Shown here: piece by piece, positions 7,427 through 18,556 of the stretch
Layout of the letters: each line of letters begins with the position of its first letter
Position numbering within the stretch: position 1 is the stretch's first letter
IMG/VR virus record: IMGVR_UViG_3300032562_002808
Location: 1-25,351 of that record
Direction: 5' to 3' (one strand)
DNA length: 25,351 nucleotides
Origin: a virus
Notes under the pieces: model-generated
Told to the model about the DNA's origin: nothing
Databases searched by the model: none
Seen by the model: only the letters and a program-made list of their open reading frames with translations
Translations under genes and position numbers: made by a program

Positions 7427-7759
7427 TTAATATTTATGTTTTCTAAAATTATGTTTTTTATTGTATTCTGCATGGCACCTATAACACATCGCAATATAAT
7501 CCTCTAAAACTCTGCGGTAGCGATGGTCTATATTTGCCCATTGAACGTTATTCGATGGGTTTCCACAAACTTCACAAATTTTTGGTCTGCCTTTCCATCT
7601 GGCTACCCATGCATGAATTGCAACATATCCGGCGTTATCTCCTTTCCAATGTGGATTTTTTTCTCCTTTTATAGCTGGGCGACCATCGAGCCAAGCGCCC
7701 TTACACCCTTTTTTAAACCACCCTTTATTGATTCCATTTTTCGGAGTTCCTGTTGGCAT
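7427..7759 (-). CDS. HNH endonuclease 1
   Basis: A 110-residue His-Me-finger nuclease. It has the pre-motif GEKNPHWKGD (residues ~32-41), a zinc-binding CEVCG (62-66), the core WANIDHRYRR with the HNH aspartate-histidine, and the second zinc pair CYRCH followed by the terminal histidine/asparagine region. The WKG pre-motif is shared with HNH-2, -3 and -4 in this window, implying a common origin. It lies between the capsid-associated protein and the connector, splitting an otherwise compact structural operon, so it looks like a free-standing homing-type element. A structured leader with kissing-loop potential precedes its ATG. Confidence 0.88.
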   Translation of the reverse strand: MPTGTPKNGINKGWFKKGCKGAWLDGRPAIKGEKNPHWKGDNAGYVAIHAWVARWKGRPKICEVCGNPSNNVQWANIDHRYRRVLEDYIAMCYRCHAEYNKKHNFRKHKY

Positions 7760-13456: not shown

Positions 13457-13774
13457 CTAACTTTCTAACCTTTTTACTTCACCTTTTATAATTTCAAACT
13501 TAGTCAAACAGCAACTGCAAAAACATGGTTTGTTAAATGTCAGCAGTTCTCCGCGCCTGTTTAAAAGTTTATAAACTATCGCTGTAAAAAATCTTTTTAT
13601 TTTACTCGCCGACAATGGCATTGAAATTGGATTGGCGCAAAACGGACAACGCATGACAATACAATTCATTAGTCCGTTAAATGCTGTCGTTACTTTCGCG
13701 TATGCGAAGTCGCCAGCGTTTCTCAATTCTTCCGGCGTTGAAAGTTCTTTAACTAACTGTGGTATTTCGTTCAT
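13457..13774 (-). CDS. Small cysteine-rich (zinc-binding?) phage protein
   Basis: The 105-residue product begins MNEIPQLVKELSTPEELRNAG, forms one helical N-terminal half, then carries CPFC (with ANPISMP) and later CFCSCC. Four or more of these cysteines could bind one zinc ion. The frame is open further upstream, but that part overlaps HNH-2 entirely and the ATG at 13774 is preferred; it overlaps the end of HNH-2 by 26 bases. It lies just before the portal gene, where phages often encode small unassigned proteins. I do not recognise a family. Confidence 0.6.
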   Translation of the reverse strand: MNEIPQLVKELSTPEELRNAGDFAYAKVTTAFNGLMNCIVMRCPFCANPISMPLSASKIKRFFTAIVYKLLNRRGELLTFNKPCFCSCCLTKFEIIKGEVKRLES

Positions 13775-14090
13775 ATTTGTCGTTATATTTTCTATCGTAT
13801 TCTTCGTGGCATTTCTTACATCTTCCAGAATAATCCTTTGGATTTCTGCTATATTCGTGGTCCACATTTGACCAATCTATATTCCATCGACCATTAATTT
13901 TCTCTCCCGATAGACCACAATCCTCGCATTTTTGTGGATGACCAAAATGATTTATAATCCATCCATGTTTAGTTTTATTCGCACAATTGTCTCCTTTCCA
14001 ACAAGGATGATTATTACCAATCTTTCCTTTCTGGAAGCCTTGATTGGCATTATGGATATAAACCCCACTTTTACCTTTTACTCCAGGCAT
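13749..14090 (-). CDS. HNH endonuclease 2
   Basis: A 113-residue HNH protein with GNNHPCWKGD, the zinc-binding CEDCG, the core WSNVDHEYSR and the second pair CKKCHEEYDRKYN. This order matches HNH-1 and HNH-4 closely. The frame can start at 14105, but the ATG at 14090 lies in the second helix of a candidate pseudoknot and gives the N-terminus MPGVKGKSGVY that resembles the start of HNH-1. The gene separates the small zinc protein and portal from the methyltransferase block. It is probably a selfish, free-standing nuclease, though HNH proteins next to terminase/portal genes can also assist packaging (HK97 gp74). Confidence 0.85.
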   Translation of the reverse strand: MPGVKGKSGVYIHNANQGFQKGKIGNNHPCWKGDNCANKTKHGWIINHFGHPQKCEDCGLSGEKINGRWNIDWSNVDHEYSRNPKDYSGRCKKCHEEYDRKYNDKYERNTTVS

Positions 14091-14155
14091 AGTCGTTCGG
14101 ACCATTGGGCGATATTGGTGGAACGACTAAGAACGCACCAAATCACCTCCCAATG
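14090..14155 (-). promoter_or_regulatory. Candidate H-type pseudoknot covering the HNH-2 start codon
   Basis: On the minus strand, TTGGTG (14141-14136) pairs with CACCAA (14120-14115), and TAGTCGTTC (14129-14121) pairs with GAACGACTA (14098-14090). The two are interleaved with loops of 6, 0 and 16 bases, geometry suitable for a classic pseudoknot. The last A of helix two is the A of the ATG. An alternative outer stem CATTGGG / CCCAATG (14155-14149 with 14109-14103) would enclose the first helix. Confidence 0.75.
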
Positions 14156-14509: not shown

Positions 14510-14860
14510 TTAGTATAAATCCTCACTAAATAATAATCTTTTTGCAATTTCTCTTATCACGTTTACTGTCACTGCATTACCGCACATTTTGTAGCGTTGC
14601 GTATCTGAAATACCCCCCCCTGTCCCTTGTGCAGTCCAGCCATCCGGGAAGCCTTGCAGGCGTTCACACTCAAGCGGTGTTAATCGTCTAATATTTGTGG
14701 GATATGCCGACCCCCCCCCTGCGGTTGCTACTGTCGGAGAGATTCCTGACTTTTTGTATACTCGGCTCGTTTGTTCGTATGAAGTCGTTGCCTCCTTGCC
14801 CGGCTTTATACCCGGCACGCAATGGATGTACTGTTTGTGTCTGCCTATTAGATTTTTCAT
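14510..14860 (-). CDS. C5-cytosine DNA methyltransferase, C-terminal part (different frame)
   Basis: This frame, open back to 15259, carries the C-terminal motifs missing from the neighbouring fragment: a SRVYKKSGISPTVATAGGG segment resembling the target-recognition/IX boundary of HhaI-like enzymes, motif IX RRLTPLECERLQGFPDGW (about 14689-14636) and motif X KMCGNAVTVNVIREIAKRLL. It is +1 relative to the N-terminal frame. It contains a G9 run (minus strand, 14719-14711) and a G8 run (14620-14613), both within glycine codons. 14860 is an internal ATG; no reliable start is visible. It probably represents the C-terminal half of one enzyme, separated by a frameshift, phase variation or a homopolymer sequencing error. 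The same frame over 15000-14870 reads WGMICNGKCLTARISESHK then SLSDILE, see findings. Confidence 0.75.
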   Translation of the reverse strand: MKNLIGRHKQYIHCVPGIKPGKEATTSYEQTSRVYKKSGISPTVATAGGGSAYPTNIRRLTPLECERLQGFPDGWTAQGTGGGISDTQRYKMCGNAVTVNVIREIAKRLLFSEDLY

Positions 14861-15416
14861 TAAAAACTTCACTGCTTTTTCCGATAGGAAATACTTTTGG
14901 TCTGGGCGTTGCTCTAAGATGTCCGACAATGAACACTCTTTCCCGATTTTGTGGGACTCCGAAATTCTTGCTGTTAAGCACTTGCCATTGCAAATCATAC
15001 CCCAGTTCTGCAAGCGTGGCGATGATGGTTTTAAAAGTGTTTCCGTTGTCATGAGATAATAACCCTTTGACGTTTTCCAGTAACAACAATCTTGGTCGTT
15101 TTTCTTTGAGTATCCGGCATATGTCAAAAAACAAAGTTCCTCTGGTGTCGGCGAATCCAAGTCTTTTACCTGCGATAGAAAAGGATTGGCAAGGGAAGCC
15201 TCCACAGAATAGGTCGAAGTCGGGCAATTCTTTTTCTTTGATTTTTGTGATGTCTCCATAATTTTTATGTTTAAAATGTTTTTCGTAAACTTGAATTGCG
15301 TATTTGTCTATTTCACTGTAACCTATACATTCCGCTTTATTTTTAGTTGCCCAATCTATACCCAGCTCGAATCCGCCGATGCCGGTGAATGTGCTAAAAT
15401 ATTTTATATGCTCCAT
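14688..15416 (-). CDS. C5-cytosine DNA methyltransferase, N-terminal part
   Basis: This 242-residue frame holds the catalytic half of a Dcm-type enzyme that transfers a methyl group from S-adenosylmethionine to carbon 5 of cytosine. Visible are motif I FTGIGGFELGI (residues 10-20), motif IV GGFPCQSFS with catalytic Cys76, motif VI LLLENVKGL (111-119) and motif VIII GVPQNRERVFIVG (153-165). Motifs IX and X follow in another frame. In this frame the chain ends soon after the G9 run as RRGGVGISHKY. Loss of one G (or gain of two) in that run would join it to the motif IX-X frame and give an enzyme of about 300 residues. The enzyme may protect phage DNA against host restriction. The ATG at 15416 overlaps the HNH-3 stop by 13 bases. 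Confidence 0.88.
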   Translation of the reverse strand: MEHIKYFSTFTGIGGFELGIDWATKNKAECIGYSEIDKYAIQVYEKHFKHKNYGDITKIKEKELPDFDLFCGGFPCQSFSIAGKRLGFADTRGTLFFDICRILKEKRPRLLLLENVKGLLSHDNGNTFKTIIATLAELGYDLQWQVLNSKNFGVPQNRERVFIVGHLRATPRPKVFPIGKSSEVFNEKSNRQTQTVHPLRAGYKAGQGGNDFIRTNEPSIQKVRNLSDSSNRRGGVGISHKY

Positions 15417-15754
15417 TTTAAGTATTCTATTATTTGACTTAATAATTCTTTGTTATCGTTAACCATCCCGAGGACTAAATTACATCTACTGCAAATCCAA
15501 CCTCTGAATTTATCTGTTTTATGGTCGTGATCGTAACAAATCTTTCCCATCGCTCCACAAATTTCACATTGCATCGGCTTTTTTCTTGGCGCACTTTTAA
15601 TTTTATATCTAAATGAAACCCCACCCTTCCATCTTGGATGATTAGCACCTCTAAAATGGCTGACTCTTTTTTCTATTGTTTCAGCCGATTGTTTCTTGCC
15701 AGTCAACTTCTGCCTTATTTTTTCTCTGGTTTCTATTGATTGTTTTCTTCCCAT
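15404..15754 (-). CDS. HNH-3, endonuclease VII-like with NUMOD3-like N-terminus
   Basis: The 116-residue protein from ATG 15754 begins MGRKQSIETREKIRQKLTGK, a NUMOD3-like DNA-binding repeat (GRKQSIETREK and GKKQSAETIEK). It continues with GANHPRWKGG, then CEICG, CYDHDHKTDKFRGWICSRCN and LGMVNDNKELLSQIIEYL. The YDHDHKT...RGWICSRCN arrangement is typical of the recombination endonuclease VII family, which cuts branched DNA. Here the NUMOD3-like segment suggests a homing nuclease with a related active site. It lies between terminase and methyltransferase, starting 6 bases after the terminase stop. Confidence 0.82.
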   Translation of the reverse strand: MGRKQSIETREKIRQKLTGKKQSAETIEKRVSHFRGANHPRWKGGVSFRYKIKSAPRKKPMQCEICGAMGKICYDHDHKTDKFRGWICSRCNLVLGMVNDNKELLSQIIEYLKWSI

Positions 15755-15759
15755 ATTTT

Positions 15760-17262
15760 TTAAATAGACCACACCTCCGGGAGGTTAATACCATCTTGTT
15801 GTAATCCCAGAAGTAGATAAACGCAGGCATCGTTAAGATCGTCGTGTGCTTCAACCCCGAAGTTAATCATCTCCGAAATTAAATCCTCGCACCCATGCAC
15901 CGGGAATTTGACTGTGCCGTTTTTAATATATTTTGCAATAACCTTTCTGCGGGCCACTTTGTCTCCGCCCGGTATCATTCTTTGTACTGCGATGCCATGC
16001 CGCTCCATGTCCTGTATGGCAACTTCCTGATATCCGGCTTTTTCCACATAAAACATATGCCCGCCACCGCTTCTTTGTTTTGCCAGCATCATAGCTTCCA
16101 AATCGGGCAACGGACAGCGCTTATGAAATGGATTTGGTAATATATATATTTTAGGATGTCCGTAGTCGTCCGGGTCGTCGTAGACATCGGCTGAAACCAT
16201 TGCGGTAAAGTCTGCGGTTTGTTTTTCTGAAATGGCCAAGTCCACGCCATGTCGCCTCATATTCAAACCAATCTGCGGAAGTTTATCATAATAGTGTATG
16301 TCTTTTTCTGTAATATCCTGTCCCTCCTCGGCGATAACTTTCAGCAACATTTCTCGGCTCCACGCAGTCTCGCCAAGCTCTTTTCGTTTTAAATCCAGCA
16401 CCGCTTTTGTCGGATACTTTGCCGGCCATGTGCATCGTCTGGTTTTCTGGTCTATAAGCGGAAACTCAAAAACTCTAAACATTCCCTTTTTCTTTTTACG
16501 AGCCATTAACGCGTCATCGTGTAGGTAGTTCCCGATTAAAATAAGTTTGCCGGTGCGCTCGTCTATGCTCGGCAGCACTTCGCCGTCTAACCACGTTTCG
16601 GTTTTAATTCGGTTTTCGCTTTGCCTGACCCATTCCAAATCCTCCGGGTCGTCTACGATGATAAGCTTCGGGCGATGCTGTCTATGCTTAAGACCACGAA
16701 CCTTTTGTCCGCGAGACCGCGCCAGTATGCGCACTCCGTTAGAGAGTAACATATTTTTACTTTGCCACTCCTCATCGCTTTCCAAACTTGGCTCCGGGTT
16801 AGGAACTTTTTTTGATATTTCTTTTGTGACACCATAGTCTTGTTTTATTAATTCGTTATTTTCCAGTTCGTTTTTTATGTTGGCAATGTTTGTCGCTGAC
16901 TGCGTTCCGGTGTCTGAAACTGGTAGAATAAAACTGTATATGTCCGGGTGTTCCAATGCTTCGTAAATCGGATACGCCAAGCTGGCTATGGTTGACTTTG
17001 CCGAACCTCTAAAACCTATAATCTCCAGCCTCAAAATTCTCGGGTCGTCTAAAGCTTCCATCAGCGTCCAATGAAAGTCCGCCGCCGGGATATTAAAATG
17101 GTGAGGCAGGTAAATAAAACAAAAGGCGTAAAATCCCAATCGCTTTACTGTGGCTCGGCGCGACTGGCTATCGCATAGCGATTGCAGGTCCTTTGTCATC
17201 AATGCTTCCGCCTCCGGCAAGCTCTCTGACGTTTGGATTTGTTGGTTCTGGTTTTGGTTCAT
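15760..17262 (-). CDS. terL: Terminase large subunit
   Basis: The 500-residue packaging motor has an ATPase part with Walker A GFRGSAKST (residues 83-91) and Walker B LIIVDDPED (200-208), a coupling-motif candidate LILIGN (240-245), and an RNase H-like nuclease with VDLAISEKQTADFTA (metal-binding D341), E407 in YVEKAGYQ and AHDDLNDACVYLL (D474/D475/D478). It pumps DNA into proheads and cuts the concatemer. The start at 17262 overlaps the small subunit gene by 95 bases, longer than usual; an internal start is possible. There are no inteins or introns within the gene. Confidence 0.95.
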   Translation of the reverse strand: MNQNQNQQIQTSESLPEAEALMTKDLQSLCDSQSRRATVKRLGFYAFCFIYLPHHFNIPAADFHWTLMEALDDPRILRLEIIGFRGSAKSTIASLAYPIYEALEHPDIYSFILPVSDTGTQSATNIANIKNELENNELIKQDYGVTKEISKKVPNPEPSLESDEEWQSKNMLLSNGVRILARSRGQKVRGLKHRQHRPKLIIVDDPEDLEWVRQSENRIKTETWLDGEVLPSIDERTGKLILIGNYLHDDALMARKKKKGMFRVFEFPLIDQKTRRCTWPAKYPTKAVLDLKRKELGETAWSREMLLKVIAEEGQDITEKDIHYYDKLPQIGLNMRRHGVDLAISEKQTADFTAMVSADVYDDPDDYGHPKIYILPNPFHKRCPLPDLEAMMLAKQRSGGGHMFYVEKAGYQEVAIQDMERHGIAVQRMIPGGDKVARRKVIAKYIKNGTVKFPVHGCEDLISEMINFGVEAHDDLNDACVYLLLGLQQDGINLPEVWSI

Positions 17263-18010: not shown

Positions 18011-18556
18011 TTAATAATTTCTCTTTAAATTATGTTTGTAATCGTAATTGCGGTGGCAGGTTGTGCATAACCTCAACCAGTCTTTTAAATTACGCTTATA
18101 CTTGTGGTCTTTGTTAGCCCATTCGTATTTTTGCTTTTTAGTCGCACCGCAAATTTCACATTTTTGAGGCGCTCCCAAATTTCTATAAATCCAATGATGC
18201 AAACCATGATAACCAACCTTGTCTCCTTTCCAAGAATGATTTTTTTCGTTTGTCGCACCAGTGCGAACCATGTTAGGCTCAATCCTTTGCTTCCAAATAA
18301 CCTCATAACATTTATGCGAGCAGTATTTTTGTTTTCGCTTTCCAAAATCTTTTACTGCTCTAAATTCTTTTCCACAAACAAGGCATTTTCTAACCTCTGC
18401 TCTTTGCAGGTGCGGATAATGTTTTCCTTTTTTCCCGCCAGTTTCTCTACCAGCATATCCGCATTTTTTACTACAAAATCTTTGTTTTAAACTTCCACTT
18501 ATTGGATAAAACTTTTTATTACATTGTTCGCAAACTAATTGTGTTTTTGTTTTCAT
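18011..18556 (-). CDS. HNH endonuclease 4 with two N-terminal zinc ribbons
   Basis: The 181-residue protein has three zinc-binding parts. The first treble-clef-like ribbon has CEQC and FCSKKC (residues ~9-32), the second CLVC and YCSHKC (~58-83), and the HNH core has NEKNHSWKGD, CEICG, WANKDHKYKR and CTTCHRNYDYKHN. The extra ribbons may help bind DNA at its target site. It belongs to the same WKGD subgroup as HNH-1 and HNH-2. It sits between HNH-5 and the terminases. A 10-bp perfect hairpin TTGATATTAT / ATAATATCAA (18591-18582 with 18569-18560) ends 3 bases before its start and spans the HNH-5 stop region. Confidence 0.88.
   Translation of the reverse strand: MKTKTQLVCEQCNKKFYPISGSLKQRFCSKKCGYAGRETGGKKGKHYPHLQRAEVRKCLVCGKEFRAVKDFGKRKQKYCSHKCYEVIWKQRIEPNMVRTGATNEKNHSWKGDKVGYHGLHHWIYRNLGAPQKCEICGATKKQKYEWANKDHKYKRNLKDWLRLCTTCHRNYDYKHNLKRNY

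Follow-up and report, generated by a model that had tools for sequence, protein, structure and literature searches.

A dual-coding C5 methyltransferase gene of a tailed phage with a poly-G tract that probably switches it between one-chain and split forms

In the poly-G contingency methyltransferases of bacteria, such as those of the type III mod genes, a slip within the tract switches a single protein ON or OFF. A different use of reading frames is found in M.EcoHK31I, a two-polypeptide enzyme whose β polypeptide is encoded in another frame within the α gene. Two-polypeptide C5 methyltransferases divide the conserved motifs in more than one way: the large polypeptide of M.AquI carries motifs I to VIII and the small one carries the distal variable region with motifs IX and X, and in M.EcoHK31I motif IX is on the small polypeptide (PMC3404938), with motif X on the large one. 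For C5 methyltransferases cut between motif VIII and the target-recognition domain, complementation by the fragments is established (PMC3404938). Phage methylase genes can also harbor a second frame, as in ShiLan, where an inserted homing element places an out-of-frame HNH nuclease within the methylase (PMC11855218).

The stretch of DNA analyzed here (the window) is the 25,351-base IMG/VR virus record IMGVR_UViG_3300032562_002808, which contains tailed-phage structural genes. On its minus strand lies a C5 methyltransferase gene that had been predicted to be split, with motifs I to VIII in one frame (frame A) and motifs IX and X in the +1 frame (frame B). Profile comparisons bear out this division: the DNA_methylase profile PF00145 matches frame A over positions 2 to 190 of 324 (E value, 5.3e-72) and the end of frame B over positions 183 to 322 (E value, 1.5e-17), and motifs I to X of the family are all present across the two frames. 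The two G tracts named in the original prediction are present (Table 1) and are the sole G or C runs of at least 8 bases in the window. Frame A does run into the G9 tract, as predicted; it passes through it open and meets a stop at position 14690. Frame B contains no stop throughout, and both frames are open at the G9 tract.

Four small ORFs of the window, all on the minus strand (positions 15404 to 15772, 13749 to 14105, 7427 to 7759, and 18011 to 18556), resemble free-standing homing-type endonucleases. The first of these is endonuclease VII-like, contains a NUMOD3 motif, and shares 13 bases with the start of the methyltransferase. Of the other three, two show a weak match to an unknown PHROG and nothing else.

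Table 1. Features of the split methyltransferase gene in the window
Feature	Position	Strand	Evidence
α ORF (frame A), 242 aa; motifs I to VIII and start of the variable region	14688..15416	-	ORF list, PF00145
Frame B ORF, 249 aa, +1 relative to α; β fused here to motifs IX and X	14510..15259	-	ORF, PHROG 16143, PF00145
β core (136 aa, start ATG at 15259), a conserved overlapping gene nested in α	14852..15259	-	Stop depletion, frozen wobble, held-out HMM, alignment
Segment EQTSRVYKKSGISPTVATA in the β frame	14720..14776	-	Comparison with relatives; identity of 11 to 12 of 19 in the β frame versus 4 to 6 of 18 in the α frame
G9 tract on the coding strand; here the length differs by one base and the α and β tails are exchanged	14711..14719	-	Alignment with L249, L264, L030, and L328
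Motifs IX and X; β frame in the window, α frame in 4 of 4 compared relatives	14510..14710	-	PF00145, alignments
Third-frame stretch RHIPQILDD-stop, homologous to the β C terminus of L249 and L328	14680..14710	-	Alignments
G8 tract in frame B, separating motif IX from motif X and in phase with the two	14613..14620	-

The β frame nested within the methyltransferase gene

The second frame of the gene had been viewed as the displaced C terminus of the enzyme. As judged from its sequence conservation, its upstream part, ∼136 codons long, is an overlapping gene in its own right, which would encode the protein referred to here as β. Among relatives retrieved with frame A or motif IX as the query, conservation extends to the section of frame B lying over motifs IV to VIII (e.g., ESHKIGKECSLSDILEQRPDQKYFLSEKAVKFL), with up to 78% identity, in those whose α is complete; the β core is marked by the motifs W..GM..NG.CLTA and SLSDILE..VD.KYFLSEK. 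The window β matches PHROG 16143 (E value, 5e-26) with its residues 3 to 132 over profile positions 5 to 134 of 139, that is, over most of the profile, from the +1 frame inside a C5 methyltransferase gene. No clear ribosome-binding site was seen at the β start in the window.

Conservation of a second frame could be a passive consequence of conservation of the first one. This possibility was ruled out by synonymous shuffling, in which the α codons were permuted within each gene so that the α protein and its codon usage were kept. In 88 methyltransferases, over the region from PCQ to 32 codons beyond motif VIII, the β (+1) frame contained 81 stops, compared to 543 expected, and was stop-free in 66 of the 88 genes; the third (+2) frame of the same genes had 942 stops against 938 expected. 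The depletion was limited to codons from about −30 to +110 around PCQ, and the few genes without the effect were distant methyltransferases. Among 137 control ORFs taken from these loci, none lacked stops in the +1 frame. In the window itself, this frame has no stops, with 6.2 expected. A hidden Markov model of β, trained on 37 genes, scored all 38 held-out genes above each of their own 20 synonymous shuffles (188.6 versus 98.0 bits). The imprint of β is also seen in α, as the entropy of its four-fold wobble positions drops from 1.61 bits outside the overlap to 0.96 bits inside it, and certain α codons are invariant beneath β down to the wobble base (GGA in 76 of 76, CCT in 76 of 76, and GTA in 55 of 55 sequences). 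The tested methyltransferases are related and hence do not represent independent trials, and many of the per-gene P values are as low as the number of shuffles can resolve. With the second frame open and conserved beyond the constraint imposed by the first, these tests show that β has the signature of a conserved gene under selection, nested in the +1 frame of C5 methyltransferases.

Searches of Pfam, NCBIfam, and PDB produced no convincing match of β to a known domain; its profile matches PHROG 16143 and, weakly, PHROG 1008. A hidden HNH nuclease, as in ShiLan, was considered and rejected, as there was no HNH match. The AlphaFold model of β has a mean pLDDT of 49.5 and is confident only near the C terminus.

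Matches to β were found in 232 phage records, most of them annotated as methyltransferase only, and, in a scan with a consensus piece of β, in 45 genome loci from Bacillota, Bacteroidota, Pseudomonadota, candidate-phylum bacteria, and archaea. The idea that β forms a separate family with no more than a resemblance to the +1 frame was discarded because in 44 of these 45 bacterial and archaeal loci it is nested in the +1 frame of a methyltransferase ORF. Overall, the nested β frame was seen in about 290 loci, a count that still includes duplicates. Its range extends from Streptococcus, Lactobacillus, and Clostridioides phages to Bacteroidia, candidate-phylum, and archaeal genomes, so that nested β would be among the most widespread overlapping genes in prokaryotes, with nearly every matching record annotating the host gene alone. 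No description of a general nested β was found in the open literature searched, which does not prove that none exists.

Site of the frame change

The relatives L249, L264, L328, and L030 are one base shorter than the window exactly at the tract. At the homologous site, L249 carries G8, and its α continues through the tract uninterrupted; α is intact in L264 and L328 as well. Comparison of tract length among relatives, which had been proposed as a check, thus showed the gene to be uninterrupted in relatives of the shorter length. The tract itself is not a conserved feature of this subgroup, because no long uninterrupted G run is present in L264, L328, or L030.

The original prediction also allowed for a frame change upstream of the tract, which would make the G tracts innocent. 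Such a shift could be placed at positions 14764 to 14783, since the segment R.Y...GISPT...GG is in the α frame in 60 of the 247 relatives (RVYKKSGISPT reads in the α frame in many of them). However, this segment is in the β frame, just as in the window, in L249, L264, and L328, all with intact α and with the length difference at the tract. Together with the G8 of L249, this places the shift at the tract and not earlier, and leaves an upstream shift most improbable. In the segment that precedes the tract, the three sequences compared are identical at 10 to 12 of 19 residues in the β frame and at 3 to 6 of 18 in the α frame; at the base serving as the wobble position of α, 16 to 17 of 19 positions agree. 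This segment of the recognition region has apparently been transferred from one of the overlapping proteins to the other.

On the 3′ side of the tract, translation of the window in three frames gives SAYPTNIRRLTP (motif IX), RHIPQILDD-stop, and VGISHKY-stop. In L249, the β frame ends in RHIPQILESDD-stop and the α frame reaches motif IX; the β protein of L328 ends in RHIPQFVD. At the G9 length, the window β does not reach its RHIPQILDD tail. One extra base at the tract therefore exchanges the C-terminal tails of α and β. Given that frame B is a conserved nested gene, a slip at this site would swap the tails of two proteins and not simply truncate one of them.

Alternatively, the true tract may be one base shorter, with an intact α and a nested β as in L249, the extra base being an assembly or sequencing error. 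Assemblies commonly err by one base in runs such as G9, the sequences in IMG/VR are assembly consensuses, and the sole difference from the four relatives is a single homopolymer base, at a classic site of error. Pattern scans of IMG/VR found no second copy of the tracts of the window, L249, or L078, a locus described below. The evidence that weighs against an error comes from the methyltransferase family as a whole.

Poly-G tracts in the family and the proposed switch

Methyltransferase ORFs contain 21 runs of at least eight G's (overlapping ORFs being counted twice; these are 16 distinct tracts in 13 genes), about four times the 4.4 expected from synonymous shuffling, while the neighboring ORFs contain 3, with 3.3 expected. 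Counted by region in the fetched loci, with the window excluded, there are 14 such runs per 257 kb inside methyltransferases versus 9 per 980 kb outside. Inside methyltransferases, the G's are always on the coding strand. A tract is present in 8 of 17 split genes and in 5 of 226 intact ones (P = 1e-7, window included), a link that homopolymer indel errors could have partly inflated, although they cannot account for the enrichment itself. With poly-G enriched in the family, confined to the coding strand, and tied to split genes, an error in the window tract appears rather unlikely.

In L078 (G10), L155 (G10), L222 (G9), and the window, the tract is located where the α and motif IX ORFs are both open, with motif IX in the +1 frame relative to α. 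In L078 (IMGVR_UViG_3300035660_000426), the G10 tract at position 2281 is inside the catalytic core, exactly at the frame break; in L155, from a Clostridia MAG, the G10 tract at position 2456 is at the point where the gene breaks into an N-terminal half and a motif IX half. In a group of loci with a nested β (L211, L221, L208, L196, L242, L244, L233, and L222), the motif IX-X half is a separate downstream ORF; in some of these the halves are separated by a single stop codon, and some have G9 tracts. Insertions with HNH-like ORFs are found in the methyltransferase genes of L038 (743 to 1307 of the displayed stretch) and L057 (286 to 709), and a long in-frame insertion in the N-terminal half of L017 recalls the ShiLan element.

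The remaining 9 of the 17 split genes are free of tracts, so splitting has other causes too. The window methyltransferase might accordingly be a decaying gene inactivated by an ordinary frameshift, with the G tract simply marking where it broke: it comes from one isolate, and the split takes motifs IX and X away from α. Decay is nonetheless very unlikely, given that the gene bears no other lesion, neither frame is closed before its expected end, and α, β, and motifs IX and X are all well conserved.

The original interpretation of the gene as a poly-G contingency locus agrees with the frame change at G9, with the excess of long G tracts over synonymous expectation, with the association of tracts and splits, and with tract length deciding the frame between relatives (G8 and intact in L249, G9 and split in the window). 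It was an incomplete picture in that it left out the nested gene in the second frame. Slippage-driven switching appears, on present sequence evidence, to be the most likely reading of the tract. With moderate confidence, the gene is regarded as a dual-coding C5 methyltransferase of a tailed phage, in which poly-G slippage would switch between a one-chain and a split form.

In the proposed mechanism, α is the catalytic polypeptide, and β, in the +1 frame inside α, starts upstream of the catalytic PCQ motif and ends just past motif VIII. The poly-G tract sits close to the end of the variable (target-recognition) region, in a part where neither frame has a stop. At the shorter length (G8 in L249), α continues through motifs IX and X and would be a one-chain enzyme with a small β partner, which ends in its own short conserved tail. 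At G9, as in the window, α stops just after the tract and motifs IX and X are fused to β. Slippage of the tract during replication would then switch the gene between the two forms, presumably reversibly. The split form may be either inactive or an α plus β-IX-X complex similar to M.AquI and M.EcoHK31I. A tentative extension of this scheme is that the next tract length, by putting the C-terminal catalytic and DNA-binding half on β, might yield a two-chain enzyme whose activity or choice of target possibly differs. A single slip could in this way re-divide an enzyme between two proteins, and the resulting variable methylation would be a possible source of phage escape from restriction.

Comparison with known systems

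PHROG 1008 led to the Acinetobacter locus L157, which has two overlapping ORFs, a methyltransferase without motif IX and a second ORF that contains W..WGMTRTG and the motif-IX-like sequence LNPDWVEWLMGWPIGWT. The β N-terminal region of L157 aligns with nested β in hhalign with an E value of 4e-5 (probability, 69%), and β of the Streptococcus phage MM1 matches PHROG 1008 with an E value of 3e-4. Nested β and the M.EcoHK31I-like β proteins likely belong to one superfamily. Among Moraxellaceae genomes, the methyltransferase ORFs of L157, L159, and L160 have no clear motif IX; those of L157 and L159 are overlapped by a second ORF with motif-IX-like sequence, as in M.EcoHK31I.

These cases bear on whether the window encodes a fixed two-polypeptide methyltransferase, with a stable G9 and an active enzyme made of α (motifs I to VIII) and β-IX-X. 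M.AquI and M.EcoHK31I set a precedent, with motifs IX and X or motif IX on the small polypeptide (PMC3404938); L157 has motif IX on a β-like ORF resembling nested β, and frame B in the window is open over 249 codons. On the other hand, this layout is absent from the 243 distinct methyltransferases surveyed, except for L078, which is split at G10 in the catalytic core, and the natural β tail is still recognizable in the third frame of the window, as would be expected for a recent change. A fixed split is therefore considered unlikely, and slippage-driven switching remains the preferred reading.

In the Streptococcus phage MM1, orf13 and orf14 (DQ113772) are annotated as the α and β subunits of a C5 methyltransferase and show the same nested +1 ORF, with the β start 151 nt into α. 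Unlike in the window, α of MM1 is complete (385 aa) and there is no tract-associated split. Like ShiLan, the window has a second reading frame concealed within a phage methylase gene; the difference is that β overlaps the conserved catalytic core itself and contains no HNH. With the type III mod genes, the window shares a long coding-strand G tract in a methyltransferase ORF, one unit away from the intact frame of relatives; in contrast to the ON or OFF of one protein, a slip here would swap the C termini of two overlapping proteins.

Relative to M.AquI, the window divides the motifs in the same way (I to VIII and IX to X). Its deep overlap, with motifs IV to VIII and a second conserved protein encoded by one DNA stretch, is not described for M.AquI in the passages of PMC3404938 on that enzyme. 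As in M.EcoHK31I, motif IX in the window is carried by frame B on an overlapping small polypeptide. In contrast to M.EcoHK31I, motif X is in the β frame and not on the large polypeptide, and the intact relatives of the window keep motifs IX and X on α, with β as an extra protein. Whether β is a general subunit of C5 methyltransferases, as it is in M.EcoHK31I, has now become a testable question. The window gene would extend two known kinds, the overlapping two-polypeptide C5 methyltransferase and the poly-G contingency gene.
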